Shown one piece after another: positions 11,071 to 64,000 of a DNA stretch of 64,000 nt. A program made the position numbers and the translations under genes. This stretch comes from a virus: IMG/VR virus record IMGVR_UViG_3300039190_000120, positions 32,324 to 96,323 of that record; one strand, given 5' to 3'. Within the stretch, counting starts at the first letter, position 1. Each line of letters begins with the position of its first letter. A model generated the notes under the pieces. It did no database searches. It was not told the origin of the DNA and saw nothing but the letters and a program-made list of their open reading frames with translations.

Positions 11071-11739
11071 TCACAGATAATCTTCGACGCCTTCAAACTG
11101 GCGGTCATACTCTTCGACGAGCTGCTTGAAAATGCCTAGCTCTTTCATGTTGGCGATCTTTTCGCCTTCATCGGAGTTAGGCCACTTGTACTCAGCACCA
11201 TGCAATAAAAGCTCATAACCGGCACCACCGGGGTCGAGGATATAAGGTCCCCACACCTCACTATAGCGGCGGGAGTGATAAGTGAGCCCTACCACCTTGT
11301 CAGTACGCCCAAGCGGGTCAATGGGACGGTTCTTGAAGACGCTTACTGTGATGCCCTCGTACACACCGAAAGCCGGAACATCGAGGTGATCTTGCCACGT
11401 CTGAATCACTGCATTGACGAGCTTACGCATCAAGTAGGGAGGGACGTAGTAATCATCACCATGAAAAGAAAACTTGACGCCCGACACTGAATACTCGAAC
11501 TTGGCACGTTGATAGTACCACGTGATGGCCCTCACAAAGATACCAGCACCCACTACAGTGACGCCTGCTGTTGACCAGACGAGGCCCGGATCGTTGAAAT
11601 CTAGGGCAGCCCAGATGGTGCACAGGATACCAATGATGGTAAAGGCTCCTGCCGTCCAGCTCATATTACGAGCGAACCGGAGGCGCTTGGCATCCTCATT
11701 GGGTACCGGATACTTGTCTGCGGTAAGTAGCTTCGACAT
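11071..11739 (-). CDS. Two-helix membrane protein in the tail gene block
   Basis: A 222-residue protein with two predicted transmembrane helices at about residues 28-46 and 53-73 (MSWTAGAFTIIGILCTIWAA is the first), followed by a ~150-residue soluble domain. No enzyme motif was found. Its stop lies 30 bases before the downstream chaperone-like gene, and its start overlaps the intein gene's stop region. It may be an envelope-contacting tail component or a late membrane protein; the function is unknown. Confidence 0.7.
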   Translation of the reverse strand: MSKLLTADKYPVPNEDAKRLRFARNMSWTAGAFTIIGILCTIWAALDFNDPGLVWSTAGVTVVGAGIFVRAITWYYQRAKFEYSVSGVKFSFHGDDYYVPPYLMRKLVNAVIQTWQDHLDVPAFGVYEGITVSVFKNRPIDPLGRTDKVVGLTYHSRRYSEVWGPYILDPGGAGYELLLHGAEYKWPNSDEGEKIANMKELGIFKQLVEEYDRQFEGVEDYL

Positions 11740-14375
11740 TAGAGATCCTCGTCATTCAGATAGGTGGTGGCGACCTTGGAGGCAAGCGTTTTGAATCCCG
11801 TAGAGTCTGTGATTTCCGCCATATAGGCTTCGTGTTCCTTCACCATGCGCTCTAGGTGGGGATAGAACCACTCACGTAGCTGCGTGCTATTGATTCCATC
11901 ACCCGCTTCAAATGCGTGAGGTAGGATCTCTAGCATATCACTTCTATGCAACACATCACGTGAGGTATTGAGTAGGAACTCCAGACGCTCGACAGCCTTT
12001 TCCTTAGAGTAGTCAGAGTCTGGCAGCTTCGAGTCGTAGTTGCTGTGGCTGAACATGTGGGAGCCGTCATTAAACCTGACGGTAACACCGCCATGCGTGC
12101 TCAGCTCAACACCAACGACTTCGGCACCCCTCTGCGGAATACTCTCCAAAGAGGTGGTGATAGCGGCCTGCTTGTTGATCGAGCTATCACGGCCCTCGAA
12201 GTAGTTGTCCTTCTTGCAGCGAGGGGAGCCGGGTTTCTTGTATTTGCAGTTATGGGCAATCATTCCATTTGCCACAAAAGATACATCTTCGGGAACACTA
12301 ACGTCATACACATCAGTCTCCCCTTGAGCCTCTACCTGTGTGACTCTATCAAAGTAATACCCATGATTCATAAGCTCACGAATATTATCAACAACACCTT
12401 CGGTGCCTCTACAGGATTCTAAGGCGTCCCACTTGCGGAGTAGACGTGAGAGGCTCACCCTTTTGGTGCCGGGAAATGCTGACCTAACCTTGCTACCTAA
12501 TTTAAGAAGGGACTCAGCCGGGATCATCTCAAACTCGGACCCCCTCTGACGCTGGCGATCTCCAGATACGGCCACCTTCTTAAATGCCGTTCCTATCTGA
12601 TCTCGGTATTTCACCACCATAGGCTTACTGTGTACCCGGACATTAAAATAGCCACGAGCGTTACATTCGAGACTGGCAGGTATACCAAAGTTCAGTAGAA
12701 GCAGGTGTAGCTGACGGGCTAGAGGCTCAGAGGAGGTAGACAAGTCAACACGGTTCAGGTGGTCGGAGTCTCCAGTGTACCCATCACCCTCGACGAAACC
12801 TACCAAGAATTCCCTCACCATCTCACGAGGCGCTTCCATAATAATGGAAGGTACCTGCTTGTCGTGAGCTGTTCCCGGAGGTAGACCTAAAGCCTCAAAA
12901 AACTCTCTATACCAGCGTGTTCTGAGACGAACCTTCCCGCAATCTTTCCACCCTTCCTCGGACCTATCTCGCCACTCTACGATAGGCTCCTGTCCAAATA
13001 CCTCTTTTGAGCAGCGAACAAAATCCCTAATGAGTCGGGGATCGGTGTTGGAGAACTCCACACCTTCTTCCGTTACAGATCCTTCAGCAACTAAGTAGCC
13101 CAGCAATCTCGCTAGAGCAGGAGATAGTTCTCGTGGCTGCCTAAATGGAATGACATTGTTCCATGTGTTGGTTTCATACCCGATCTCAGGTAGTGTGGTA
13201 CGTGCTCCCCATACACCATGCGTAGGTAGCACTGCATAGCGTCCTAGAGCTTCCTGAGCCTCTACCCATTCCGTACTGTAATCATTCTCGTTAAGTACGA
13301 GGATCTGGTGGTCCGGGGTACAGGTGAGGGAATAACCATGTTTAGTGTTTACGGACACCGTGGACTTGGTACCTGTATAAATGATATGGCTAGAAGCGGC
13401 CTCTCCATATCGGGAGGCCAGTCTTACACGGGTTGGTTTAGCTTCTACCCCATCGGAGTGCATTACCTTTTGACCCGCAGCTTCGTTGTATAACTCCTCC
13501 ACACTTTTAAGTCCGTTCTGTGTAGGCACTAAGGTGTTGCCTGCCACACAGTAGCGGGACCAAGCGATAGCCCACGCCTTGTCCTCGTCCATCCCCTTGT
13601 CTTTGTGCTCTTTGACGTACCGCTCGACAGTCTTAGGAATGTCCTTTGCTCTCCGTGCCATACTAGCGGCACGGGAATCCTGAGAGAGGTAGGACGCCAG
13701 TAGACCGTTCATCTGGTCAGATCGGACTGCAATGTCCAACTGGAGATGATCGAGCAGAGCATCTAGGATCTGGAGTGCCTCATACTCTTTGACCACCAAA
13801 GCACGTTCCAACAAGCGGACCGCTTTGTCCTGAGCTTTGAGAGCACCACGTGAGGGGTCACGCTGGATACCCCCTACCATATCAGACAGGAGAGCAGTCA
13901 GGCGGCCTTCAGCTACCCCTCCAGTATCCACACCGTCAAGTACCTCGGAGGCTGCGGACTCCACAGAGCCGGTAGGCAGGCCGATCTTGAGGTACCCGAT
14001 TAGGGAGCGAATGAACTCGTGGGCGTCACGGTTGGAGAGGGAGGCATCATCATCCAGCTCTTCCCGCACCATCTGAGCCAGCTTCGTCTCGGCACGCTGC
14101 GGATCTTTGCTGGGAAAAGGGGAGAGTGCCTGCAGGATATAGCTCTTGATACCCTCGATCAGCTTCTTCTGGAAGCCATCGGACAGGTTAGGGAGGTAGG
14201 TAGCCCGGAGGTATCTAGAGGAGACCTTGGAGGCCAGAGCGCCTTCACGGCTTCCTGTCACGACGGAGGTGCCGTTCTCTTCCATGTAGTCGAGAAGACT
14301 ACGGATCGGAACCTTGAGGCCGGGCTCACGGGCTCCCATAGCAAGCAGGAGGCGTTTCAGATCGTCGGGATTCAT
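11739..14375 (-). CDS. Virion-block protein interrupted by a LAGLIDADG intein
   Basis: The 878-residue precursor has exteins 1-275 and 710-878, so the spliced protein is 444 residues. The extein junction AWSRY/CKYKKPGSPRC belongs to a short motif seen in phage virion-maturation genes (AWAIAWSxYCKYK-type); the exact role is unclear. The N-extein is helical. The intein sits exactly before Cys710, which would be the +1 nucleophile. The ATG is followed by MNPDDLKRLLLAMGAR, and the gene overlaps its downstream membrane-protein neighbour by one base. Confidence 0.82.
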   Translation of the reverse strand: MNPDDLKRLLLAMGAREPGLKVPIRSLLDYMEENGTSVVTGSREGALASKVSSRYLRATYLPNLSDGFQKKLIEGIKSYILQALSPFPSKDPQRAETKLAQMVREELDDDASLSNRDAHEFIRSLIGYLKIGLPTGSVESAASEVLDGVDTGGVAEGRLTALLSDMVGGIQRDPSRGALKAQDKAVRLLERALVVKEYEALQILDALLDHLQLDIAVRSDQMNGLLASYLSQDSRAASMARRAKDIPKTVERYVKEHKDKGMDEDKAWAIAWSRYCVAGNTLVPTQNGLKSVEELYNEAAGQKVMHSDGVEAKPTRVRLASRYGEAASSHIIYTGTKSTVSVNTKHGYSLTCTPDHQILVLNENDYSTEWVEAQEALGRYAVLPTHGVWGARTTLPEIGYETNTWNNVIPFRQPRELSPALARLLGYLVAEGSVTEEGVEFSNTDPRLIRDFVRCSKEVFGQEPIVEWRDRSEEGWKDCGKVRLRTRWYREFFEALGLPPGTAHDKQVPSIIMEAPREMVREFLVGFVEGDGYTGDSDHLNRVDLSTSSEPLARQLHLLLLNFGIPASLECNARGYFNVRVHSKPMVVKYRDQIGTAFKKVAVSGDRQRQRGSEFEMIPAESLLKLGSKVRSAFPGTKRVSLSRLLRKWDALESCRGTEGVVDNIRELMNHGYYFDRVTQVEAQGETDVYDVSVPEDVSFVANGMIAHNCKYKKPGSPRCKKDNYFEGRDSSINKQAAITTSLESIPQRGAEVVGVELSTHGGVTVRFNDGSHMFSHSNYDSKLPDSDYSKEKAVERLEFLLNTSRDVLHRSDMLEILPHAFEAGDGINSTQLREWFYPHLERMVKEHEAYMAEITDSTGFKTLASKVATTYLNDEDL
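12249..13550 (-). other. Intein with LAGLIDADG homing endonuclease domain
   Basis: This segment encodes residues 276-709. It starts with Cys276 (CVAGNTLVPT, splicing block A), has a block-B-like TPDHQ region, two LAGLIDADG-type helices (LLGYLVAEGS and LVGFVEGDGY) and ends VANGMIAHN before Cys710 (block G with the terminal His-Asn). All residues expected for protein splicing and two active endonuclease helices are visible, so it looks like an active mobile intein. Confidence 0.93.
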
Positions 14376-27794: not shown

Positions 27795-28640
27795 ACAAGT
27801 TAGACCCGTGAGGTACTGTTGAAGGTCGTCTAGTGTGGTTGCCTGCTTGAAGAACCGGGAGGCACCTCCCTCGTCTCCGTACCGTGACATATTCCGGTCA
27901 GGCCCCATCTCATAGGCATTCGCATCGTAGGAGTCGGCTACCACGGCTGTAGAGCCATCTCTAGCATGACCGGCTGCGTGCATCCCACCTGCCAAGCTCT
28001 GGACGTCTAGGTGCCTCACGGGACACGAGGATTGGCATCTCCAGTCGGCTACCTCCTCTTTTCCGTAGTCTGAGGGGTCGGTGTAAAACGGAATTGAACC
28101 TTCAAACTTCTGATCCGACGATCCAAACCCCACGCCCCGTTCAGTGGTACCTTCATCCTCACCACCACGACCGGGTTGGTTGGAGGCTTTCACCTTCTTC
28201 GTACCAACGCACTCACAGTTGGGACCGTGAAGCAAGAGCACATTCGAGGGGAACCTACCCAGAGACTCCGCTCTCTTGACCTTCTCGACGGCCTCCACCT
28301 TTCGTGCCTCCAGCACCTCTTCATCGTGCATCCAAGGGCGATCACCATACAGCTCGCTGCGTTTCCCGTTCGCAGTGTCCCCGCCGTCTAGTGAATCAGT
28401 GGTGCTAATACGGCCAGCATCAATGTCAAGGTAGCCGGTGCCACCACGAACCACTTGACCCACGATGGTGTCCTCAAGAGGTCTTCGGAGTAGGAGCCCC
28501 ATCATTGGTCCTAATGGACCAAGAATAGAGAAGCAATCCCGTACCTCTAGTCCAGCACGTCTGGCAGAGAAGCCTGCCTTATCGACAGAGGTGGGGTCTA
28601 CTAAAAGCACCAGATGTTCACCGGGTACTAAGTCATTCAT
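27774..28640 (-). CDS. DNA methyltransferase-like protein B
   Basis: A 288-residue paralog of 22995-23792 with the same landmarks: GEHLVLLVDPTSVDKAGFSA, ARRAGLEVRDCFSILGPLGP, GGTGYLDIDAGRI, GRFPSNVLLLHGPNCE, WRCQSSCPVRHLDVQS and GGASRFFKQ. The Cys/His segment is retained. A canonical DPPY motif is absent. The ATG overlaps the stop of the MIRN-family gene upstream. It could modify phage DNA or be a catalytically dead decoy; this is not resolvable here. Confidence 0.75.
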   Translation of the reverse strand: MNDLVPGEHLVLLVDPTSVDKAGFSARRAGLEVRDCFSILGPLGPMMGLLLRRPLEDTIVGQVVRGGTGYLDIDAGRISTTDSLDGGDTANGKRSELYGDRPWMHDEEVLEARKVEAVEKVKRAESLGRFPSNVLLLHGPNCECVGTKKVKASNQPGRGGEDEGTTERGVGFGSSDQKFEGSIPFYTDPSDYGKEEVADWRCQSSCPVRHLDVQSLAGGMHAAGHARDGSTAVVADSYDANAYEMGPDRNMSRYGDEGGASRFFKQATTLDDLQQYLTGLTCLTPTRY

Positions 28641-29223
28641 CCCCGAACCTCTCAACAAATACAGGTGTCCTCTCCCCATAATAGGCCCCGATCACGTTGT
28701 ATTCAAAGAACTCAGTAGCCTCGGAGCGAGACATTGTATCCCGTTCCATGAGGATCTCGATACAGGCGTCGTAATCGTAAGCGACCAGAGGGTCCGAACC
28801 GGCTCGACGTGAGACACCTAAGATAGCCTCGTCAAAGCCGTCCGCAAACCACAGATCATCATACTCCTGTGCTAATCGCTCTCGCCGGGTGGGAGGTGGC
28901 TCCTCTACCTGAAACAGCTCGTGTATCGTATCCTCTGTGATCCTATTTGCCAACTCGTGACGACCTCCAGCCGTCTTGAGAAGCTCATAGATCTGGGGGG
29001 TTGCCCCGCTTTCCTTTAGCTGTGTAAGACTCACTTCCCACCTATACTCCGCACTAGAGTCACAAAACCCGATGGTCCGGGCAGCCGGGTTATCACTACA
29101 ATATATCCGGGACCCCGTAGTCCTAGCATGGTCGTAAGCCATCTGTACTAACCGATCCCCCGCCTTGCTTGACTCACGGAACACACTGTAGGCCTCGTCC
29201 ACGTCAAAGTAGTTGCGAATCAT
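28633..29223 (-). CDS. MIRN-family N-terminus fused to a conserved phage domain
   Basis: A 196-residue protein that begins MIRNYFDVDEAYSVFRESSK, the N-terminal cassette of the 41-57 kb array. It ends with a different conserved phage domain, DGFDEAILGVSRRAGSDPLV, then EILMERDTMSRSEATEFFEY and YYGERTPVFV. It shows that the cassette can be joined to unrelated bodies. Overlaps by ATGA on both sides. Function unknown. Confidence 0.75.
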   Translation of the reverse strand: MIRNYFDVDEAYSVFRESSKAGDRLVQMAYDHARTTGSRIYCSDNPAARTIGFCDSSAEYRWEVSLTQLKESGATPQIYELLKTAGGRHELANRITEDTIHELFQVEEPPPTRRERLAQEYDDLWFADGFDEAILGVSRRAGSDPLVAYDYDACIEILMERDTMSRSEATEFFEYNVIGAYYGERTPVFVERFGDE

Positions 29224-44599: not shown

Positions 44600-44628
44600 C
44601 TAATACCCTACGAAGCACGGTAGGTCAA
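44600..44628 (-). promoter_or_regulatory. Promoter for the 44560 gene
   Basis: TTGACC (44623-44628), N17 ending AGGG, TATTAG (44600-44605). It overlaps the end of the upstream MIRN gene. Confidence 0.65.
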
Positions 44629-45084
44629 ATTAAGGTCCCACACAGGATCTTCCCAAGGTGCAAATACTGGTCGAGGTATGTACGTCTCAATCATATCGGG
44701 GATTGGAACCTGTTGGTACTCCTCCTGCTCTCCATACATCTTAAAGGTGTGGTAGAGCAGGTCTTCCGTGAGATGGTACCAATCCCAAGACCGCTCATGC
44801 CGAAGGGAATCCTCGCAGCCGCCACCACGGGGGTTATAGCATTGGGAGGCTATCTCGAACTTCTGTGTTCGCACCTGCCAGATCACCCGATACTTCTCGA
44901 ATATGTTATTGCCGGTGTCGTACTGCCAGACAAAGACGACTTCAATGAGCTGATCTGTACCGGGATTAGGTACGGCCTTGACCGCAGGCCGGGGGATATG
45001 ATCAAGGTCGTGGTACCAGAGAGAGGATGCACGCTCTTTCAAGACACCCATCAAGTAGCCTACGGTACTGTGGTTTCTAATCAT
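44608..45084 (-). CDS. MIRN-family protein (MIRNHST)
   Basis: A 158-residue member, MIRNHSTVGYLMGVLKERAS. Body: EVVFVWQYDTGNNIFEKYRV and RSWDWYHLTEDLLYHTFKMY. Confidence 0.72.
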   Translation of the reverse strand: MIRNHSTVGYLMGVLKERASSLWYHDLDHIPRPAVKAVPNPGTDQLIEVVFVWQYDTGNNIFEKYRVIWQVRTQKFEIASQCYNPRGGGCEDSLRHERSWDWYHLTEDLLYHTFKMYGEQEEYQQVPIPDMIETYIPRPVFAPWEDPVWDLNLTYRAS

Positions 45085-50498: not shown

Positions 50499-50715
50499 GT
50501 GTCTCTGAAAGCTCAGCAAGTCCTAGCGTCCAACCTACGGCGTACGAGTCTTGATTACGTTTGAGATAGGGTCGCATTACAGGGTAGATAGTCACGACCC
50601 GGAAGCGCCGACCATCGTCCTTCTCGATAATGTCCCCTATCTCGTGTGGTTTGGGAACACGGGGCCGGTTGTACAGCTCTCTTTGCAACTCTTCTTTGGT
50701 CTGGGCTCTAGCCAT
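50485..50715 (-). CDS. Unknown 76-residue protein leading a MIRN unit
   Basis: MARAQTKEELQRELYNRPRV, without the MIRN cassette but ending ETHADT over the next cassette. Behind the 50754-50783 promoter. Confidence 0.65.
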   Translation of the reverse strand: MARAQTKEELQRELYNRPRVPKPHEIGDIIEKDDGRRFRVVTIYPVMRPYLKRNQDSYAVGWTLGLAELSETHADT

Positions 50716-50753
50716 CTCGTCTTCTCTCTGGTAGTCATAGAGCTAGCATCTAT

Positions 50754-50783
50754 CTGATACCACAGTGCTATGCCTGTTGTCAA
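50754..50783 (-). promoter_or_regulatory. Promoter for 50715 operon
   Basis: TTGACA (50778-50783), N18 ending GTGG, TATCAG (50754-50759). No similar promoter is seen from here to 58473. Confidence 0.6.
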
Positions 50784-50791
50784 AGAGCCCA

Positions 50792-51276
50792 ATGATACGT
50801 AACTACCTCCCCTACAGTCACATCTTTGATGAAATTAGGTACCGGTGTCCCATCGGGTATGAGGTACTCAAGAGCTGCCCAATGCCCTCTCGTATCGAGA
50901 TGCGCGGGGCGAACTGGACGGTCCTCAATTGGGTATTCGACCGATCCGATACGATACGGAAGAGTTCGTAGTGAATATCTGCTTCATGCAAACAGACAGT
51001 GGTGAGATAAAGCCCCATTGGGAGGGCGAACCAGAGCCTGAAGACTGGCATCGTTCCAAAGATTATGAAGACCACGAGGCACTCATAAGAATGGTACGCC
51101 ACTACGCACGCCAAGACTCGGTGACAAAGCGGATACTACCAATGCCCGACGAAGTGGCTCGGGAGTTCTGGGAAGGACAGCCTCCCTTTAGCCTTCTTGT
51201 CCTGTCGACCTACGAGGTACTTCGTGCAGACGTCGGAGACAGCGGACCCTCAGTACACCAACTACGTCGATACTAG
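50792..51276 (+). pseudogene. Inverted MIRN-family member frameshifted by a 5-bp duplication
   Basis: The only plus-strand member: MIRNYLPYSHIFDEIRYRCP. The frame breaks at 50948-50957, a GATAC GATAC tandem. Removing one unit gives one 159-residue ORF that reads SDTEEFVVNICFMQTDSGEI across the junction and ends at 51276. Orientation suggests a local inversion. A ribosome site is not obvious. Confidence 0.72.
50948..50957. repeat. GATAC x2 tandem duplication
   Basis: A perfect 5-bp duplication that puts the host gene out of frame; one copy restores it. Confidence 0.75.
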
Positions 51277-51289
51277 GTTTGAGTAGTGT

Positions 51290-51620
51290 GGACCCTGTGC
51301 AGACAATGGAAGGGGCAGACCGGAGCATATCAACAGGACTGCAATACTTACGGGGACTTAGTTTGTTTCCCGAAAAAGGGTTGGCAATGAAGGACCTAGC
51401 CTCGGTGTGATCAGGAAAGTAGGTTGCCTCGAAGGTCCAACAGATGCCCTGATCTTGAGGCTCCGGGGAGGAGCCAGACCCAGCAAACAACCAGAGCACG
51501 GCTCGCGCTCTCATACTCAAGGTAGGAAGGTACGCCGTGATCAAGGGTTGGGGCAAAAGCCGGGAACCTCGAAGCGACCTCGTAGAGTAGGTTCCAGTAC
51601 GTGAAGTAGTTCTCAATCAA
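51290..51620 (-). pseudogene. MIRN-family member, TTG start and C4 frameshift
   Basis: Begins with TTG in place of ATG as IENYFTYWNLLYEV, in frame with the upstream member. One C removed from CTCCTCCCCGG continues the body as PEPQDQGICWTFEATYFPDH. The 3' end runs into the inverted plus-strand gene, so the original stop is not identifiable. Confidence 0.6.
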
Positions 51621-52069
51621 AACGGCGAAGACCACGTGGTCATAGAAGTCATAATCCGTCCAAAACTCACTGAGGACGAACCTGCCATTAGCGGAGAGGG
51701 GGACGGGTTGGAGTCCTTGTTCCTCAATACGATCACACAGGATGAAGATACCATCTGTGACCTGAGCTACCTCGTTGCGTACGAAGTTCCACCCGTTCTC
51801 GCTGATCCTGATCTTCTCGTAAGTGTATACCGTATGTGCACCATAGCCCTCTTGGAAGAGGATCTCCAGTGTCCATCTCCTCTCGTCTCTAGCGCCGATC
51901 TGATCGGGGTCACAAAAGCTCCAGTACGCAGTGAAGAACTGGTTCTCTAGGAGGCTTAAATCAGATGGCGGTACACCTCCCAACTCGTCCACTACGTATT
52001 TGACCCCGTGGACTTATGGCGGTACATATTGACAAGTGCAAATCCCTCTAGGTACCTTTCCTTAATCAT
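51617..52069 (-). pseudogene. MIRN-family member (MIKERYL), G4 frameshift and fusion
   Basis: MIKERYLEGFALVNMYRHKS stops early. One extra G in CACGGGGTC would continue as VKYVVDELGGVPPSDLSLLE. The body (RRWTLEILFQEGYGAHTVYT) then reads without a stop into the next member, producing a fused frame. Confidence 0.62.
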
Positions 52070-52176
52070 GCGAACTTCCTCTCTAACCTTGAGAGACGCA
52101 GGTCAATAAGACGCTGGCGTTGACCGCGGCCTGATTCATCCATCTTCAGCTTGTAACACCCATCCCGGATGCTATG

Positions 52177-52457
52177 CTATACAAACGTCTCTAGGTCGCG
52201 GACCTCGATGTGCTCTTCCTCATTGTGGTTGAGGACCCACTGAACTTCGTGTTGGTCATAGCGTAGCGGGTATAAGTAAGCACGATCCAGTAGTCCGGGT
52301 ACTCCCTGTCTTCGTAGATCCAGTAGATCGTAAACTCGGCCTCCTGAGAGATCCCACCAATGTCCGTAGGCACACCTAGAGTGCGGATCAATCCCGGAAT
52401 CACAGGGTCCAAAAGAGCCAGTGTCCTGTAGACCGGAAGATAGTTACGTATGCTCAT
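52177..52457 (-). pseudogene. MIRN-family member (MSIRNYL), one-base frameshift
   Basis: MSIRNYLPVYRTLALLDPVI to DYWIVLTYTR. A neighbouring frame gives the real end, RYDQHEVQWVLNHNEEEHIE to a TAG at 52177. The shift falls near TTATACCCGC. The length of 281 bases is consistent with one changed base. Confidence 0.65.
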
Positions 52458-52639
52458 ATCTTGGGATCCGGCCGGAGAAAAAATGGTCGTAGGTGCATCT
52501 CCACTCTATCCTCTGTGGCCGGGCCGGGGTCTAGGCTTCTGGAAGACATAAGAGGACCAACCCAGAAAGTCACGAAGGTAGGAGGTCCACCGGCACTTAG
52601 ATACAGGAGGTATTGTCTGTTGAACCAGTTGCGTATCAT
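52454..52639 (-). CDS. MIRN-family short member (61 residues)
   Basis: MIRNWFNRQYLLYLSAGGPP; intact frame with ATGA overlap to the next member. Shorter than typical, so it may be a degraded or minimal copy. Confidence 0.58.
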   Translation of the reverse strand: MIRNWFNRQYLLYLSAGGPPTFVTFWVGPLMSSRSLDPGPATEDRVEMHLRPFFLRPDPKI

Positions 52640-53120
52640 CCCAAAGCCTCCAAGATCTTAGCATGGGCGTCCTTATTGGGCTCCTGCTTAATACCTGAGG
52701 GACCACATAGGCGTCGGTGTGCAAGAACAGACTTCTTGAAGTCGGAGCCGTCCTCTATGAGCCGCCGCCTTTCTTCGACACTGCGATAGCCACGGGATAA
52801 GGCTCTCTGGAAATAGTGATAACCCTCTACCTTCCTGTCATGGGCCGGATTGAGGATCAAGGTGTAGACGTGGTGGACGTCCGTTCTCGCTTCCTCACCC
52901 TCGGTGAGGTCTACGAGCCGGACAAAACGATGCTAGCATCCTTTTCGGTGTACCGCCACAAGATAGCAATTGCATTGTCTATATCAGAGATGGCTGAGAA
53001 ATACCCGTAGCCCAGACACCAAGGGGACCCCAACGTCGAGATGTACTCCTCCCATAACAAGGGGTGGCGGTCGAGCAGAGGACCTACGACATAATAGAGG
53101 GGTGAGGTGTCGAGTATCAT
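52636..53120 (-). pseudogene. MIRN-like member (MILDTSPL), T4 frameshift
   Basis: MILDTSPLYYVVGPLLDRHP up to EKDASI. One T added to ATCGTTTTGTCC gives VFVRLVDLTEGEEARTDVHH and an in-frame end KDAHAKILEALG at 52636. The restored length is 161 residues. Confidence 0.65.
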
Positions 53121-53518
53121 GTGAGGAACCTCTTTATGGACCCCAGCGTGTTGAGGTTGTAGGAGGGAATCATCTTACCGTACTCAGTGAGTGGGGGCGC
53201 TGCATCCAAAAAGGCATCGAGACCTACACACGTATTATTCTCGGTACTAGTACGTAGACCTTTGTTGTCGTACTCACGGTTCTCTATCCCCAAGATGATG
53301 GTCCCGTCAAGGTAGAGTCGGCAATTGTGGTCGAAAGGGACTCGAAGATGTAGAGAACCATGACGTGGTGAGTACCACCGTCTGCCTCAGGGTCCTGATT
53401 GACAGAGAGGATACACACGTAGTTGACCGTACGTCTGGAAGATAGGACCACCCATAGAGGCCCATCTCGACAGGAGGATACAACAAACCTCGTGATGGAG
53501 GAAGAAATTGCGTATCAT
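53117..53518 (-). pseudogene. MIRN-family member with two frameshifts
   Basis: MIRNFFLHHEVCCILLSRWA, then TVNYVCILSVNQDPEADGGT in a second frame and RVPFDHNCRLYLDGTIILGI in a third, ending LGSIKRFLT. The shifts compensate in total length, but stops lie between them. Confidence 0.6.
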
Positions 53519-53946
53519 AACAGGAACTCACGCTCGATTCGACCCATCATTGACAAGTCGTAGGACGGCTCGATCCTCTTGAACTTCTCGGGCATCGGGT
53601 CGCACGCTCAGGCCGAGGGTGCACCTCTCCCGCACCAAACTCTCGCTTCCGACTGTGCTTAACACGTCCCCAACGACCATCATAGACACGAAGCTCTCGT
53701 ATGTGCCTCACACGTCCAGAGGGCCACAAAAAGGTCTTGTACTCCCAGAGGCTATCCTCCGACTCAAATTGGTGGGCCACGAATACCGAATCCTCGACGA
53801 TACTAATGATGCGAGGCTAGGCTAGGCGAGGCGAGGCGAGGTCGGCCCATCACCTTGAAGATCGTGCCCGTGCCCGTGCCCAGCGAAGGCCACTTCTCTA
53901 TCAGGCCCTGACAGATGGAGTAGTGATAGAGGTAATTGCGTATCAT
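53515..53946 (-). pseudogene. MIRN-family member disrupted by a 6x5-bp repeat
   Basis: MIRNYLYHYSICQGLIEKWP is followed by GTGTGT (three in-frame GGGCAC hexamers), then six pentamers at 53812-53841. Collapsing to one pentamer gives GRPRIISIVEDSVFVAHQFE in one frame. A second lesion lies before the real end FKRIEPSYDLSMMGRIEREF. Confidence 0.7.
53812..53841. repeat. Pentanucleotide tandem array (CGAGG/CTAGG x6)
   Basis: Six units CGAGG, CTAGG, CTAGG, CGAGG, CGAGG, CGAGG on the plus strand. Six copies are out of frame; one copy restores the gene. Confidence 0.85.
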
Positions 53947-53950
53947 GCTC

Positions 53951-54215
53951 TCAGATACCTTCTATTACGGCGTAAGCAGTATCCAGTGCGTCACGTGGCT
54001 CTACATCTGTTCCCTCCACATCAGCATAGAGAGCTGCTGTCTCCCTGTGTAGCACAAAGGACATAAAGAAGGGAGGCCCACTGTACGTACCGGTGTGGTA
54101 AGACCACGTGATAATGAAGTAGTCCCCCTCTTGTGGGCAGACCTCCACGGCCTCACGGCCCCACGGCCTCGAAGAACTCCGTAAGCAGGGGTCCCAATTG
54201 CTCAGTGTCTACCAT
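53951..54215 (-). pseudogene. Small gene disrupted by a 3x8-bp repeat
   Basis: MVDTEQLGPLLTEFFEAV, then three octamers (54146-54169). With one copy the frame reads FEAVEVCPQEGDYFIITWSY to the stop at 53951, an 82-residue product. Confidence 0.72.
54146..54169. repeat. Octanucleotide tandem array (CACGGCCY x3)
   Basis: CACGGCCT, CACGGCCC, CACGGCCT. Two extra copies add 16 bases and break the frame. Confidence 0.85.
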
Positions 54216-54525
54216 TCAGCACTCTCTATCATTCCGTACAGGGCGTGCACAGCATCCCACGACTTCTTATAGGGATACCTACGCCTTTCTGCTACAGATC
54301 GCCAAGCCTTCATCGAACCATCTGACCTGTCAATCTCGAACACAAGGTACTTCATATGCGTACCACCTCTTCGAGAGACTGCTGGCGTACAGAGAAACAC
54401 GGGTCCTCTTCTGTCTCCCTCTCCCATTCGATATGCTCGAAGCGAAGGCACAGGGTAGCTTAGCTCGTCATTGAGGTGAGGTGCGGTGCGGTGCGGTGCC
54501 ATACTGTAAGGTTACGTATCGGCAT
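54209..54525 (-). pseudogene. MIRN-family member (MPIRNLT) disrupted by a pentamer array
   Basis: MPIRNLTVWH, then the array 54471-54500. Removing four units gives TVWHLNDELSYPVPSLRAYR and a 98-residue ORF ending KKSWDAVHALYGMIESAEW. A shorter product from the ATG at 54355 is possible. Confidence 0.7.
54471..54500. repeat. Pentanucleotide tandem array (GTGCG-type, 6 units)
   Basis: Units TTGAG, GTGAG, GTGCG x3, GTGCC on the plus strand. Confidence 0.82.
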
Positions 54526-54526
54526 C

Positions 54527-54733
54527 TTAGAGCGCCTTGCATTCGGAGAGATTGATACCGTGCTTCACAGCTTGTCCCTCTACGTCTGTACCTGCATAGA
54601 GAAAGGCCGCATCATCGAAGACCCAATTGGACCCTCCCGTACCGGACTGCCACACATGAAGGTAGCCCTCTGAGGTACTCCCCTTGTTGCGTGTCACGAA
54701 TACGAGGGGCTCTGAAACACGCAGATGACGCAT
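54527..54733 (-). CDS. Unknown 68-residue protein
   Basis: MRHLRVSEPLVFVTRNKGST; an AAGGAAG site supports this ATG, and an in-frame ATG lies at 54763. FDDAAFLYAGTDVEGQAVKH resembles AALYADVEGTDVEPRDALDT in the 53951-54215 product, so the two are probably diverged paralogs. Confidence 0.6.
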   Translation of the reverse strand: MRHLRVSEPLVFVTRNKGSTSEGYLHVWQSGTGGSNWVFDDAAFLYAGTDVEGQAVKHGINLSECKAL

Positions 54734-54771
54734 GTGGTCTTCCTTCTCCTCTATGTCCTGCATGGCTAGGG

Positions 54772-54813
54772 CTAGGTCTAGGTCTAGGTCTAGGTCTAGG
54801 TCTAGGTCTAGGT
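54772..54813. repeat. Hexanucleotide array (CTAGGT x7)
   Basis: Seven perfect CTAGGT units flanked by near copies, just upstream of the 54733/54763 start. Telomere-like in look, but here a microsatellite in a leader region. Confidence 0.92.
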
Positions 54814-55060
54814 AAGAGATAAGACCTGCTGCAGATAAAGACGATAGCTTATATTAGCTATGACCCCCGGTATGATTCGGTCCCCTTGTGTCCTTCGTGC
54901 CATTCGTTATGCCTCTTGTTGGTTAGTTCCTGTGTAACCACTCCTATATACCACAAAGGACGTAATAAGCGGGGTATTTATGTGGGGTCCTACGGGTATT
55001 TTAAGGGGGTTTTATTTGACCCCTTGCAGGAAGGAGTTGTGAGAGGGGGTCGCGGTCGAG
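54814..55060. other. Non-coding region, no gene recognised
   Basis: No supported CDS. A TATATA preceded by GTGG on the minus strand (about 54943-54952) is a possible weak -10. GC-poor and GC-rich patches alternate. Confidence 0.4.
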
Positions 55061-55218
55061 GGAAGGGTTGAGCTAGAGGTCAAGAACCCATATCAGAAGG
55101 GCGTGAGAGGCCGATTATCGTCCTGTGACGGAGATCAAAGGAAGGGTTGAGCTAGAGGTCAAGAACCCATATCAGAAGGGCGTGAGAGGCCGATTATCGT
55201 CCTGTGACGGAGATCAAA
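55061..55218. repeat. 79-bp perfect tandem duplication
   Basis: Copy 1 is 55061-55139 and copy 2 is 55140-55218, identical throughout, followed by a short partial third start. Non-coding. Ends next to the ATAATCC element. Confidence 0.93.
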
Positions 55219-55225
55219 GGATTAT
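55212..55225 (-). promoter_or_regulatory. ATAATCC-TTTGATC element
   Basis: Fourth copy of the element seen at virion genes, here at the right end of the 79-bp repeat and next to an A-rich stretch (55264-55305). It may mark a promoter or replication-related site. Confidence 0.3.
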
Positions 55226-55340
55226 TGATAAGGCGTCATATGTACCGGGCATTCGGATCTGACGAAACAAAAATCCAGAAAAATAATTTCAAAAAAATAA
55301 AATATTGCTTGACAACAGATTCAAAATGTGGAGGACGGTA

Positions 55341-55571
55341 TTAGTGATCGAGATCAAGGCCGGGAATCATGTGCAGGAGATCCTCAGTGACTTCGGCATC
55401 GTGGGTAAGCAGGAGAGGCTGATCATAGGTCCTAGTGATCTCCCCCTTACTGAGGATGATCACCTCGAACTCGTCTGTCTTACTCCGGTCCGTCTGAATC
55501 CAGACCTTGGAGTCGAGGTAGTGATCAGGGATCTTGTCGAGTTGCTCTTTAAGGTCACGCCAAGTGAACAT
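55341..55571 (-). CDS. LPEHYL-motif short protein
   Basis: A 76-residue protein, MFTWRDLKEQLDKIPDHYLD, related at its N-terminus to the 46966-47649 protein. It ends before the AT-rich region. Confidence 0.66.
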   Translation of the reverse strand: MFTWRDLKEQLDKIPDHYLDSKVWIQTDRSKTDEFEVIILSKGEITRTYDQPLLLTHDAEVTEDLLHMIPGLDLDH

Positions 55572-55587
55572 AGGTATTCTCCATTTG

Positions 55588-56044
55588 TCAGGTCCACCAG
55601 CAGCCCATGACGGAAACTGCTTTCTGGAGCTGGGTGTGTGGGGTTAACGCATTAGGTGGTGGATTAGTATTTCCGGCCCGGCTCTCATAGAGAGAGAAGT
55701 AGTCTTGCCACGATCCCCGTGTGTACCAGAGATACAGATCGAAGGTCGTGCGTTGAGCTTCCGGGTTATTGGTATCTTCGGCTTCGCACCACTCGACGTA
55801 CTCTTTGAATTTGAGTGGGCCTCCATATGTTCCTCGTCCACTCTGTGTTAACGAGGCACGTGAACACAGAGTGGAAAGCGACGTGATCACAATCGTAGAG
55901 GCGGCCATCCTCTTCAAGAGCCGGGATCGTCAGTTGGTTGCCTTCTATCATATCTAGCGTGGGCCGAAGAAGAAGTCGAAGTGACGGTGAGATTGGTAAA
56001 GGTTCTGCCAAGCCAAGTGGCAGGGTACAGGACGTATTGCTCAT
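55588..56044 (-). pseudogene. Array member with frameshift at a hairpin
   Basis: Starts at 56044 as MSNTSCTLPLGLAEPLPISP, overlapping the previous stop (TAATG). Near HSVFTCLV the frame moves to GRGTYGGPLKFKEYVEWCEA and ends ALTPHTQLQKAVSVMGCWWT. The switch lies in a perfect 12-bp inverted repeat (55849-55885 area). Confidence 0.62.
55849..55885. repeat. Inverted repeat, 12-bp arms, 13-nt loop
   Basis: CCACTCTGTGTT and AACACAGAGTGG around AACGAGGCACGTG-type loop, inside the disrupted gene. Approximate limits. Confidence 0.75.
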
Positions 56045-56340
56045 TACGCAAATGAAGCAAGCCAAGGTTGGGGGTACATATCTCGATACGTGTGGTGGTC
56101 CGGGGTTTGTTGAGTGAACGTGGTGTTGAACGAGAAGGGATTGTCTTCGGGCTTCTCTAACTGGAGGGTGAAGAGCCAGAGATAGCCAGTATGTGGGTCC
56201 TCGAAGGTCCAGTGGAGTTTGAGCTGATGGTCATCCGGGTACAGGGACGTAAACGAGAAGGGATGCCTGAGCTGATCCCACCATTTCGTAGTGGGGAAGT
56301 AGGAGAAGAAGGTACCTAGCTGGAAGCGTTCCTGAATCAT
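56044..56340 (-). CDS. MIRN-family protein (MIQERFQ)
   Basis: A 98-residue open frame, MIQERFQLGTFFSYFPTTKW, with LKLHWTFEDPHTGYLWLFTL (a clear W-x-F strand pair). The end PQPWLASFA resembles KQPWLAYPQW in the next member, which continues further, so this copy may be truncated. Confidence 0.65.
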   Translation of the reverse strand: MIQERFQLGTFFSYFPTTKWWDQLRHPFSFTSLYPDDHQLKLHWTFEDPHTGYLWLFTLQLEKPEDNPFSFNTTFTQQTPDHHTYRDMYPQPWLASFA

Positions 56341-56365
56341 GCGAAGGTCCTCATGCGAAGGTCCT
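56338..56365. repeat. 14-bp tandem duplication
   Basis: CATGCGAAGGTCCT twice plus eight further matching bases, covering the stop/start overlap of two array members. Confidence 0.85.
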
Positions 56366-56743
56366 CATGCGAGCTTGGTGTCATCCCTCTGTGGTGTGCA
56401 GGTCTGGGGGTTGAAAGCATTGTTGAACCTGAGGAGCCACTGTGGGTAAGCAAGCCACGGCTGCTTTAGATTATCTGAGCTGCGGCTGTAAGCAAAGTCA
56501 GGGGCTTCCTCGTAAGGATCATCTGCCTTAGGGGACCATGAAGGTCCAGACCGGCCAGAAGGAGGGAGCTGAATCAGTCACCTGAATGAAGGTCCAGATG
56601 AACTGGTAGACGTGGCAGGTATAGAGACGCCGGTATGTCCAGTTCGTCATATCGAAGGGGACGGCTGGTACAGCTTTCCTGATCAAGGGGTGTAACTGGT
56701 AATTGCACAGAGCGTACCCCGTGTGATGTAGGTCACGAATCAT
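56365..56743 (-). pseudogene. MIRN-family member (MIRDLHH), C4 frameshift
   Basis: MIRDLHHTGYALCNYQLHPL to FWPVWTFMV. One C removed from GTCCCCTAAGG gives PKADDPYEEAPDFAYSRSSD and the end RFNNAFNPQTCTPQRDDTKL. Restored length 125 residues. Confidence 0.68.
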
Positions 56744-57092
56744 GCTTCTTCCCTCTGATGTGATTCTGTAAGGCGCGTGCCCACCTCATGGAGCCTACCT
56801 CATGGAAAGCGCTGTAGGGAGGGTCAGCCGAATAGAAGCCCATCTCGAAGTCACCCCAAGACTCCGGGCTCTTGAGCAGCCGGAAGGAGAAACACATCTC
56901 GGGATAGTTGACCCCGTTGTAGAAGTGGGTACCCCCTGATAAGGTGAAGTTCCACTGGAGGACAACCATTCCGTCCTCTGTTACCCTCTTGTCATCGGGT
57001 GGGGCCGTAATTTGTTCGAGGACCTTGCGTACGTACCCCGTCTGAGCGTAGGAGGGGAGCGTAGAGTATATCCAGCGATTACTGATTGGCAT
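56733..57092 (-). CDS. MIRN-family protein (MPISNRW)
   Basis: A 119-residue intact member, MPISNRWIYSTLPSYAQTGY, with VVLQWNFTLSGGTHFYNGVN and CFSFRLLKSPESWGDFEMGF. Ends KKHDS over the next cassette. It is the clearest intact member in the right half. Confidence 0.7.
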   Translation of the reverse strand: MPISNRWIYSTLPSYAQTGYVRKVLEQITAPPDDKRVTEDGMVVLQWNFTLSGGTHFYNGVNYPEMCFSFRLLKSPESWGDFEMGFYSADPPYSAFHEVGSMRWARALQNHIRGKKHDS

Positions 57093-57426
57093 TGTAATCC
57101 CCCGGTCTGATCCACTGCTCTTCTTCGTTCGTGAGACGCCACCAATGGAGCCAGTTCCTACTGGAGATACACTTGACGGTATCGTAATTCTCACCCACCC
57201 GGCCCTCCAGATACAGAGGGCGCTCGTTATGCTTGTACTTACGGAGGGCGAAATGAGAGACTTCATCTCTATTTGGATTCTTGAATAGCCAGACGAGATC
57301 AACGCACTCCGACGCCTGCTGTACGTAGGTAGGGGGCCTCAGTAGCTTCGAGAGTATAGCCTAGCCTAGCCTCACCGCACGTGAAGGCTATGAGGTCCTC
57401 AAGTGTATGATGTAGTTACGTATCAT
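57079..57426 (-). pseudogene. MIRN-family member with one-base loss and pentamer expansion
   Basis: MIRNYIIHLRTS then stop. Adding one C after TAC gives HHTLEDLIAFTCGEA; collapsing the 57357-57371 array to one unit continues as ILSKLLRPPTYVQQASECVD to NANQ at 57079. Two lesions in one gene. Confidence 0.65.
57357..57371. repeat. Pentanucleotide array (TAGCC x3)
   Basis: Three perfect TAGCC units on the plus strand. Confidence 0.8.
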
Positions 57427-57975
57427 CTAGAGGGACTCGAAGAGCGCCTTATTGTAGTCACCAAAGCTACCGTCAACCAGCTCTTGAGGTGTGACCCACT
57501 TGACGACGCCCTCTTCCTCGCTCCCTAGCTCGCCTTCGTAGGTGGTGACGAGGTAGGTGATGCAGTCAAAGCCCGTGTTGGGAGCTGAGAAGACCGCAAC
57601 AAAGCCGGAACCTGTGAGGCCCGTCTCTTCTTTCAGCTCCCGCTTGGCAGCTTGGATCGGAGACTCTCCGGGCAGTCCGAAGTCAGTAGGGTCGTCCTTA
57701 CGTGAGACACCCAACACCTTGTAATTCCTGTCCCGGATAAAGATGGTGACAGCGAGGTCCTTGTCTTCGCTCTCGATCTTACCCTCTTCACGCAAAATAT
57801 CCAACCCCTGAAGGTAAGCGAGGGTGAACATACCGTCCTCTCTCTCAGGGAAGTGAGAGCGGAACATCTCGTAGTCCTCCTGAGAGGGGTAGAGGTACGA
57901 GTCCTCTCGGTACAGGTAGTTGGTATGCGCCGTATCCACCCCAAACTGAAGGATTGCGTTTCTCTTTACGCCCAT
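57427..57975 (-). CDS. Nudix hydrolase-like protein
   Basis: A 182-residue protein with a Nudix box, FGLPGESPIQAAKRELKEET followed by GLTG: E-x7-RELKEETGL is intact while the N-terminal Gly spacing is shortened. Nudix enzymes cleave nucleoside diphosphate derivatives; some phage members remove RNA caps or sanitise nucleotides. An N-terminal ~75-residue extension precedes the domain. Confidence 0.82.
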   Translation of the reverse strand: MGVKRNAILQFGVDTAHTNYLYREDSYLYPSQEDYEMFRSHFPEREDGMFTLAYLQGLDILREEGKIESEDKDLAVTIFIRDRNYKVLGVSRKDDPTDFGLPGESPIQAAKRELKEETGLTGSGFVAVFSAPNTGFDCITYLVTTYEGELGSEEEGVVKWVTPQELVDGSFGDYNKALFESL

Positions 57976-59165: not shown

Positions 59166-59609
59166 TTACAGGACCGATTCCGGGCCGTTGGTGAACACGT
59201 CGGCGCTAACCGGGTTGAGACGCTCACCATTGCCGAAGCGACGCTTGCGTTCCGCCTTGCTCAGGGGACGGCAGGTGCGGCAGTAGCTCTGCACGTAGGT
59301 CTTGCGACCGGCCTTGACCTTGCAGTTGCGGAAACCGAAGGCCTCTTTGATGGCCTCGACACCCTCGACTTCGTGACCGCAGGACGGGCACTCGTGGTCG
59401 ACCTTGGTCCAAGGCTTGCGGCGGCCCACCATTCCACGGTGGCCTCCCCGGCTGATCTCCGGGAACTTGCGCTCCAGCTCGTCATAGAGACGGCTGCTGT
59501 CCTTCTCGTCAAACTCGGGGTGGGCGTGAACCCAGCATTCGATGAAGCTCTTACGGATGGTGAGGTTGTCATTCTTCGAGTTAGCGTCGGTCGAGATCGA
59601 GTTCGTCAT
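59166..59609 (-). CDS. Zinc-finger protein, intact paralog
   Basis: A 147-residue protein: N-terminal FIECWVHAHPEFDEKDSSRL, a central CPSCGHEVEGVEAIKEAFGF and SYCRTCRPLSK (four Cys of a zinc finger), and FTNGPE at the end. Its broken paralog lies at 62009-62376. Unknown function; possibly nucleic-acid binding. Confidence 0.75.
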   Translation of the reverse strand: MTNSISTDANSKNDNLTIRKSFIECWVHAHPEFDEKDSSRLYDELERKFPEISRGGHRGMVGRRKPWTKVDHECPSCGHEVEGVEAIKEAFGFRNCKVKAGRKTYVQSYCRTCRPLSKAERKRRFGNGERLNPVSADVFTNGPESVL

Positions 59610-62008: not shown

Positions 62009-62376
62009 CTACTTAGCGCATCTGCGGCGCTTACGGGCCGGGACCGTTCCAGCTTCCGGTCCGTTCGTCCACGCCTCTTCCACGTTCACCGGGTTGATGC
62101 GGACGTTGCCGTTCTTGCTCTTACGCTTGGCAGCGCGGCACTCACGGCACCAGCTCTGCGTATACACCTTGCCGTTCTGGCGACGGAGGCCGAAGCCTTC
62201 CTTGATCGCTTCCACACCCTCTACGGTGTGTCCGCAGCACGGGTGATCTCCGGGTACTTGCGCTCCAGACGATCGTACAGAGCCGATGCGTCCTTACGGG
62301 AGAAGTTCGGGTGGTTGTGGGTCCAGCACTGGATGAAGTCTTTGCGAAGCTGCACGGTGTCTTCTTTCTTAGCCAT
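62009..62376 (-). pseudogene. Zinc-finger paralog broken by an internal deletion
   Basis: MAKKEDTVQLRKDFIQCWTH to YPEITR in frame 1; frame 2 continues CCGHTVEGVEAIKEGFGLRR to KRRRCAK. Compared with 59166-59609, about 15 residues (first CPSC side) are missing exactly at the junction. So a small deletion removed them and shifted the frame. Confidence 0.72.
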
Positions 62377-62467: not shown

Positions 62468-62540
62468 AACTTTCTTCAAAAAGATTTCGACACGCTACGT
62501 TAGGGTACCGTAGCGTAGCGTAGGACCCGACTAACAAAAG

Positions 62541-62795
62541 CTAAAGATCGCGTAGCGCAGTTCCGGCGCATCGTTTCATTTGAAGACTGTCGAGCTCTTC
62601 CTTCTCAGAGTCCGTCATTTCGACGGAATCACCAGCGACATAGGCGCACTCACGGCGGTCAGAGTACGCACCGCCTGTCATCACCAGTTGAACACTTGTA
62701 CGCAACTGGTGATGATGCCTGCAAGCCCCACGTACCTTGCCTTGCCTTGCCTTGCCTTGCCTTGCCTTGCCAACTGCTTTGTAATAGCGTTTCAT
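62541..62795 (-). CDS. Small protein containing a 7x5-bp in-frame array
   Basis: An 84-residue protein: MKRYYKAVGK, a GKARQ repeat from the pentamer array (62736-62770), then GACRHHHQLRTSVQLVMTGG and an acidic C-terminus. Six extra pentamers add 30 bases, so the frame is kept. A 13-bp inverted repeat (62678-62715) lies in the coding sequence. Confidence 0.65.
   Translation of the reverse strand: MKRYYKAVGKARQGKARQGKVRGACRHHHQLRTSVQLVMTGGAYSDRRECAYVAGDSVEMTDSEKEELDSLQMKRCAGTALRDL
62678..62715. repeat. Inverted repeat, 13-bp arms, 12-nt loop
   Basis: TCATCACCAGTTG and CAACTGGTGATGA around AACACTTGTACG, inside a coding region. Confidence 0.88.
62736..62770. repeat. Pentanucleotide array (CTTGC x7)
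   Basis: Seven perfect CTTGC units on the plus strand. Confidence 0.95.
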
Positions 62796-62853
62796 ATCAT
62801 TCTCCGTCGTAAATCGTTAAGTTAAGGGGATCCAATGTCCCCATCTTCACTAA

Positions 62854-62882
62854 CCTATACCCTAGTGATCTCCTCCTGTCAA
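62854..62882 (-). promoter_or_regulatory. Promoter for 62795 gene
   Basis: TTGACA (62877-62882), N17 ending AGGG, TATAGG (62854-62859), then TTAGTGA. Confidence 0.82.
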
Positions 62883-62902
62883 AATTATTTAGTCCAAAGG
62901 GG

Positions 62903-63109
62903 CTATTTCTTTCGACCTTCTTCGAAGTACCAATCGGTATGGAGCTTGTTCAACTCCGACGATTTCTTTTTGCACGCATCCTCATCAGAGAGTAGGTAGC
63001 AGTATCCTGTATCAGCACCAAACACCCCGTAATCGCTGTACCTCTCGTCAAACTCCACATAGAAACCTACCTTGCGATCCTTTTCCAGTGCTTCAGTCAT
63101 GGTCTTCAT
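62903..63109 (-). CDS. Unknown 68-residue early protein
   Basis: MKTMTEALEKDRKVGFYVEF, then YSDYGVFGADTGYCYLLSDE. AGGAGG before the ATG at 63109 decides the start. It lies behind the 63161-63189 promoter. Confidence 0.7.
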   Translation of the reverse strand: MKTMTEALEKDRKVGFYVEFDERYSDYGVFGADTGYCYLLSDEDACKKKSSELNKLHTDWYFEEGRKK

Positions 63110-63160
63110 TGCTGCCTCCTCGCTGTGTCCGGGAAAGCCAACCCTTCCCGTCTTCACTAC

Positions 63161-63189
63161 CTTATACCCTAGTTATCTCCGCCTGTCAA
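63161..63189 (-). promoter_or_regulatory. Promoter for 63109 gene
   Basis: TTGACA (63184-63189), N17 ending AGGG, TATAAG (63161-63166), then GTAGTGA. Confidence 0.8.
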
Positions 63190-63195
63190 AATTAT

Positions 63196-63429
63196 TTAGT
63201 CACTCTCACCAATGCGGGCTAGCATGTTCCCGTCTATCACCACTGACGACAGTACCTCCGCTTGGTCCGACCATGATGCGGTACTAGGGTCTACCAGCAC
63301 CAACTGTACCTCTACGTGGCCCTCAGTGCCGTTCATGCCCCAAGAGTCCCCCTCTTCCACCCTCAACTGTAGGCGCTCACGTATGACCTCTAGTACACGT
63401 GCCTCTATGTCTTGCGATGCATCAGCCAT
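63196..63429 (-). CDS. Unknown 77-residue protein
   Basis: MADASQDIEARVLEVIRERL, helical N-terminus then strands (HVEVQLVLVDPSTASW). GGAGACAAGCA precedes the ATG. Confidence 0.66.
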   Translation of the reverse strand: MADASQDIEARVLEVIRERLQLRVEEGDSWGMNGTEGHVEVQLVLVDPSTASWSDQAEVLSSVVIDGNMLARIGESD

Positions 63430-63468
63430 TGCTTGTCTCCTAGACGTTTGTGCGCCGTCCCTTTGCCT

Positions 63469-63642
63469 TCAATTGTCTTCGAAGCGCACCAGACCTTTCC
63501 TAGCCAGATCCCTGTAGATTTTCCCCACAAGGGAGGCAGTCGACCCTACACGGTCTCCCAACTCTTGGCAGGTCTGTCCCGTGTTCTTTTGCAGGGCACG
63601 CAGCTGTTTGTCTGTCAGGTCCGGGTCCAGTTCATCTTGCAT
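63469..63642 (-). CDS. Winged-helix-like small protein
   Basis: A 57-residue protein, MQDELDPDLTDKQLRALQKN, then TCQELGDRVGSTASLVGKIY and LARKGLVRFEDN, a compact winged-helix pattern. The ATG after the upstream stop is preferred over a start inside the neighbour. Confidence 0.62.
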   Translation of the reverse strand: MQDELDPDLTDKQLRALQKNTGQTCQELGDRVGSTASLVGKIYRDLARKGLVRFEDN

Positions 63643-63643
63643 C

Positions 63644-63832
63644 TCACGCAGCTGCCTCCAGACGTTCAGCCATGTCCCCAAGCTGGTCAGCTTCCGGTGG
63701 ATACATGGAGGCCAACATCCCTCCTACCTCTTCATCCAAGGAACCGTACATGCCGTTGGCAGTCTTGAGCACATCACGCAAGCGGTCGTCGATCTTGTTG
63801 TGGTCGTCCGGGTCAATCGTAGAGAAACTCAT
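63644..63832 (-). CDS. Unknown 62-residue protein
   Basis: MSFSTIDPDDHNKIDDRLRD, acidic and helical, immediately upstream of the winged-helix-like gene; the two are likely cotranscribed. Confidence 0.62.
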   Translation of the reverse strand: MSFSTIDPDDHNKIDDRLRDVLKTANGMYGSLDEEVGGMLASMYPPEADQLGDMAERLEAAA

Positions 63833-63891
63833 GGTCCTAGTCTCCGTAGCTATGCTATGGGGGCAGGGGGTAGGCCCTCACCCCTAGTAGA

Positions 63892-64000
63892 TTAGTTTTT
63901 CGGCGCACGACATTTCTTGCACATGGTCTGCACGAACTCCGTGCCGTTGAGCTTGCGGGTGCCGAACACATGTCTCCGGGCGCTTGGCCCATTTACCACA
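63892..64000 (-). CDS. Zinc-knuckle protein (5' end outside window)
   Basis: Only the C-terminus is visible: RRHVFGTRKLNGTEFVQTMC then KKCRAPKN. The CKKC pair suggests a treble-clef or zinc-ribbon protein like others in this early region. Confidence 0.55.
   Translation of the reverse strand, partial: VVNGPSARRHVFGTRKLNGTEFVQTMCKKCRAPKN

Follow-up and report, generated by a model that had tools for sequence, protein, structure and literature searches.

The opa genes of Neisseria are phase-variable through slipped-strand changes in CTTCT repeats, the number of units setting the downstream reading frame (PMC5320596). Among phages, 17 pentanucleotide motifs in all were recorded in a survey of 147 mycobacteriophage genomes (PMC6426759), and the Gin and Cin systems of Mu and P1 work by inverting tail-fibre genes at specific sites (PMC4987407). 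Here we describe a five-base tandem array inside gene A, a small phage gene whose product starts MIRN, in a window (the whole 64,000-base stretch of DNA analysed) that corresponds to positions 32324-96323 of a 96,323-base IMG/VR virus record, an environmental phage contig. We consider it probable that this seeming switch belongs to a row of accessory genes that is in decay and often undergoes tandem duplication, and that it does not work as a switch. The features discussed are collected in Table 1.

The contig fits a tailed phage, on the basis of a PHROG match to topoisomerase II, an intein-bearing ORF and further ORFs which, from reading the sequence, we take to resemble thymidylate synthase, dihydrofolate reductase and a tape-measure protein. 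A second contig of the same virus, IMGVR_UViG_3300035034_000619, is 99.97% identical across 35,207 bases without a gap and stops short of the gene A locus. IMGVR_UViG_3300028377_000005 is a collinear relative (70-79% over the core) from which a counterpart of the contig's last 30 kb is absent. IMGVR_UViG_3300028377_000003 (G4) and 3300011189_000001 (G5) represent one other phage, the core of which is unrelated to that of the contig; they overlap by ~98 kb, so that the two comparisons are not independent. G4 has several early genes and a promoter-like motif in common with the contig's last 5.4 kb.

Three observations on the contig at large may be recorded here. The last 1.2 kb of the window (62845-64000) is 96% identical to positions 6514-7696 of G4, a phage with an unrelated core, pointing to either exchange of an early-gene module or a chimeric contig end. 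The intein block at 12231-13648, within the 11739-14375 ORF, is 99.0% identical to that of a relative whose other core alignments reach only ~70-79%, which suggests that the intein may have been transferred recently. The promoter-like motif CTAGGGTATAGGTTAGTG (coding strand), with a TTGAC-type element upstream, occurs in seven copies between 59672 and 63172 against a chance expectation of 0.03, preceding small minus-strand genes; it recurs in the relative and also in the G4/G5 phage, which is otherwise unrelated, and a search of bacterial genomes gave no match to it.

Table 1. Positions, in the window, of gene A, its neighbours and the tandem arrays around them
Feature	Position	Strand	Remark
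Putatively decayed segment of accessory gene array	50500..57400	-	concentrated frame breaks without start codon
Gene D' (MSIRNYL...)	52177..52457	-	frame break near 52243
Gene C (MILDTS...)	52636..53120	-	one frame break near 52930
Gene B, tandem paralogue of A	53117..53518	-	broken twice; without pentamer array
Gene A, small phage protein starting MIRN	53515..53946	-	frame broken twice; termini homologous to gene B in MIRN frame
Second frame break of gene A, approximate	53595..53612	-	from codon-usage frame path; no tandem array
Pentamer array	53811..53841	-	at first frame break of gene A; six units
Hexamer array, 3.2 copies	53863..53881	-	inside gene A; frame-neutral; encodes GTGTGT
Gene Z (MVDTEQLG...)	53951..54215	-	directly upstream of A; ATG 54215
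8-base array, 3.1 copies	54146..54170	-	at sole frame break of gene Z
Pentamer array	54475..54499	-	immediately after ATG at 54502
Hexamer array, 8 copies	54766..54813	-	just before ATG at 54763; frame-neutral
Perfect 79-base tandem duplication	55061..55221	-	stretch without coding signal
Early gene, zinc-finger-like	62009..62376	-	internal deletion disrupts frame
Sister pentamer array, 7.4 units	62735..62771	-	in open gene

TRF reports the pentamer array of gene A with a period of 5, 6.2 copies, 92% matches and a score of 48. Read on the minus strand, positions 53812-53841 comprise three units of CTCGC, two of CTAGC and a last CTCGC, that is six units, not all identical, which span codons 36-46 and put a period not divisible by three within the coding frame. 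The array is not due to chance, because 60 dinucleotide shuffles of 50-64 kb yielded no period-5 array and a mean of 0.18 arrays of any period, compared with 3 and 10 observed. From the ATG at 53946 gene A opens MIRNYLYHYSICQGLIEKWPSLGTGTGTIFKVMGRPRLASPSLASHH and meets a stop at 53803, giving a predicted truncated product of 47 residues, and downstream of the array the +1 frame reads PRIISIVEDSVFVAHQFESEDSLWEYKTFLW. Scoring by codon usage, with 33 accessory genes as the training set and 30-codon means of 7.0 in true frames versus -8.2 in false frames, gives +5.1 for frame 0 upstream of the array and +8.5 for frame 1 downstream of it. The claim of the preliminary description that a six-copy pentamer breaks a MIRN gene is thus borne out by the TRF array, the early stop and the switch of frame in codon usage. 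Its calculation that a loss of 25 bases (five pentamers) shifts the frame by one is arithmetically correct, but a loss of 10 bases (two units) does likewise; as five is 2 modulo 3, unit numbers of 1 modulo 3 share one frame outcome, and one unit is therefore not the sole number that is in frame.

The reading frame of gene A changes a second time. Codon usage follows the MIRN frame to the pentamer, +1 from there, and the MIRN frame again from near 53604, the last segment scoring 9.9 in that frame; the coding signal is weak and partly ambiguous in the middle of the gene (53736-53647). With both genes read in the MIRN frame, the end segment of A, PEKFKRIEPSYDLSMMGRIEREFLL, aligns with that of B, TEYGKMIPSYNLNTLGSIKRFLT (score 48, reached in 0 of 2000 shuffles), and the two C-termini have the pattern PSYxLxxxGxIxR in common. 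It had been proposed that one copy of the pentamer restores the gene exactly. A single unit would indeed join GRPR to IISIVEDSVFVAHQFE, but reading of the one-unit version of the gene would continue as far as a stop at 53547 without including the conserved end: one unit opens the middle and loses the true end, because the frame reverts near 53604 and the conserved C-terminus lies in the MIRN frame. No number of units yields one uninterrupted gene A that includes this end, as a phase-variable gene should allow, and with two frame changes the gene carries more than one inactivating lesion, as is typical of a pseudogene. Relatives with the same six units fixed, their downstream frame decayed as well, had been named beforehand as a finding that would speak against the original reading; the half of this that concerns the frame holds, the downstream frame of gene A being decayed, and a scan of viral contigs with the flanks of the array found no relatives that carry it. 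At the hexamer array of gene A, its paralogue is three residues shorter.

Genes A and B are paralogues, their N-termini also matching (phmmer, about 1e-7). One of the breaks in B roughly coincides in position with A's array and the other lies later, neither with an array, and an older break in gene A is possible because its paralogue is broken at about the same place without one. In gene Z, two extra 8-base units account for the frame difference; as far as the frames can tell, arrays caused the breaks in two neighbouring genes, A and Z. Most other breaks have no array. Frame changes without an available start codon number five in the 6.9 kb from 50.5 to 57.4 kb, none in 20-50.5 kb, none in 57.4-64 kb and one in 1-16.5 kb (binomial p about 8e-5 for the concentration, within the window), and breaks of the same class number two in about 107 kb of relatives. 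Neighbouring genes are hence broken above background, at 5 in 6.9 kb versus 1 across the remainder of the scanned window, in an automatic count that misses, on account of a nearby GTG, both A's break at the array and the deletion in the zinc-finger-like early gene. That early gene, outside the core decayed segment, has intact relatives in the G4 phage and in a paralogue (59166-59609) of the same contig.

Tandem arrays cluster as well: 10 of the 15 on the contig lie within the 9 kb from 53.8 to 62.8 kb, and their period is not a multiple of three in 9 of these 10, against 1 of the 5 elsewhere. All five perfect pentamer arrays of the contig (at least 3 perfect units) fall within this same segment, and by the same criterion three phage contigs that are related or co-occur have none, of which G4 and G5 overlap as stated above. 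The five arrays in 9 kb contrast with the total of 17 pentanucleotide motifs from the 147 mycobacteriophage genomes (PMC6426759). At 58-64 kb, where the flanking genes are mostly open, pentamer arrays either preserve the frame or occupy intergenic positions, the outcome to be expected of selection acting as a filter on a common supply of duplications. The perfect 79-base duplication is either recent or a product of assembly. Of the short arrays between 53811 and 62771, more have five-base units than units of any other length. A local surplus of such arrays, which are rare in phages, suggests a duplication bias that may be local or linked to the polymerase.

The preliminary description had further held that the ancestral gene had one unit and that the repeat grew by slippage. 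Growth from fewer units does seem likely from the sequences compared, because the paralogue has no array, the CTAGC pair points to duplication after mutation and G4 has about one unit at the sister array; slippage is the likely origin of this growth. One substitution followed by duplication is the simplest account of the adjacent pair of CTAGC units, and the array would therefore have changed length at least once after mutating. At the sister array, of CCTTG units, G4 has about one unit versus 7.4 here, an excess of 30 bases which keeps the gene open, and growth on the present contig would be the polarity indicated by the lone, degenerate unit in G4. At 62501-62523, between genes, G4 is ten bases shorter. 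That the ancestor had exactly one unit does not follow, B being broken at about the same place without an array, and an exact ancestral number was dropped from consideration, as the alignment of A with B cannot fix its value.

A scan of viral contigs with the flanks of the array, allowing a gap of 0-30 bases, found no other copy of the array locus, and three peptide queries of viral contigs (A's downstream peptide, the NUDIX protein at 57427 and the 51411 protein) brought up no relative of it; no orthologue of gene A outside the contig emerged from these searches. A DNA pattern for the MIRN start matched an unrelated phage only, and megablast of 40-64 kb against INPHARED gave no match. About 17 small proteins that otherwise differ (28633-57426) begin alike, on the pattern M-I-x-N-[YWFH]-[FL]-[N], and similar starts are found in G4/G5. 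PHROGs assigned one family of unknown function to 28633-29223 and nothing to seven other MIRN-array proteins scanned, and Pfam gave no match for the small accessory proteins scanned, NUDIX excepted. AlphaFold2, run on an eight-row alignment headed by 44608-45084, returned a low-confidence model (pLDDT 53.5).

We propose that gene A and its neighbours, including paralogue B, derive from intact short genes packed end to start, and that the pentamer array would be one product among several of tandem duplication in a series of small minus-strand accessory genes undergoing decay in an uncultured phage. Units would have been added by replication slippage or short tandem duplication, moving the frame of gene A at codons 36-46 and leaving a truncated, presumably functionless product, and a separate small indel near 53604 would have returned the gene to the MIRN frame. 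The array may thus be a symptom of relaxed selection and local duplication, and no reversible switch. Decay, fed by abundant local tandem duplication, explains more than a switch does because gene A and its surroundings carry further lesions. Against decay, arrays fall exactly on one break in A and on the single break of Z, so some breaks are tied to arrays, and those at 54475, 54766 and 62735 adjoin or lie near start codons, as repeats in phase-variable genes also do. If decay is the right explanation the locus is ordinary yet instructive, in that the repeat which looks like a switch is only one among several lesions, and following the frame beyond the first break decides such a case.

The breaks and repeats could alternatively stem from assembly or consensus errors in a poorly covered or strain-mixed stretch of metagenome, which we regard as unlikely. 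The contig is metagenome-derived, with the region placed towards the end, and the virus's other contig stops short of this region; yet the codon signal persists between breaks, where dense random errors would blur it, the contig is gap-free against that other assembly across 35 kb, genes on the far side of the region (57.4-64 kb) are nearly break-free, and over the terminal 1.2 kb another phage contig shows 96% identity.

Phase variation, in which a slipped-strand change of unit number at the pentamer would switch gene A on and off and several neighbouring arrays would act likewise, meets the difficulty that gene A is broken again downstream and that B, C and D' are broken without an array. 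At the array at 54475 a downstream stop lies in the later coding frame, such that no copy number opens a path, and no second copy was found in the viral-contig scan with its 0-30 base gap. Six imperfect pentamers and three imperfect 8-mers are also short beside opa tracts of mostly about 7 to 20 units (PMC5320596). Even with a period of 5 within the reading frame, five perfect pentamer arrays in 9 kb and none in the three other contigs, an array at the only break of Z, a duplicated variant unit as a trace of past slippage and the precedent of Neisseria opa (PMC5320596), we judge a switch at gene A distinctly unlikely. A broader, contingency-style version would have slippage at short repeats, chiefly those of five bases, reshuffle the reading frames across a tandem family of accessory genes with MIRN starts, each genome expressing a different subset and this contig being a snapshot with most members off; we think this very unlikely. 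Programmed ribosomal frameshifting, +1 after the array and back later to give a full protein from the present sequence, would suit the frame order common to A and B (start frame, +1, start frame), but was considered and set aside as barely credible, the +1 stretch past the array being only about 12 bases with no recognised shift-prone sequence, the second shifts of A and B differing in position, and other genes having different patterns or single breaks.

Set beside the described systems, the locus has in common with Mu Gin and P1 Cin the genetic variation of phage accessory genes; theirs is a site-specific inversion of tail-fibre genes, nothing similar to which is seen here. As in Neisseria opa, gene A has a five-base repeat in its reading frame, belongs to a paralogous gene family and has its downstream frame set by the number of units; unlike opa, it is broken again downstream, its paralogues are broken without arrays, and its own array is short and imperfect. 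The mixed indels in adjacent genes, the one intact relative elsewhere and the coding signal still readable between breaks are shared with pseudogenes that arise, under relaxed selection, through tandem duplication and small indels, from which this locus differs in that five-base units are unusually frequent, with five perfect arrays in 9 kb.
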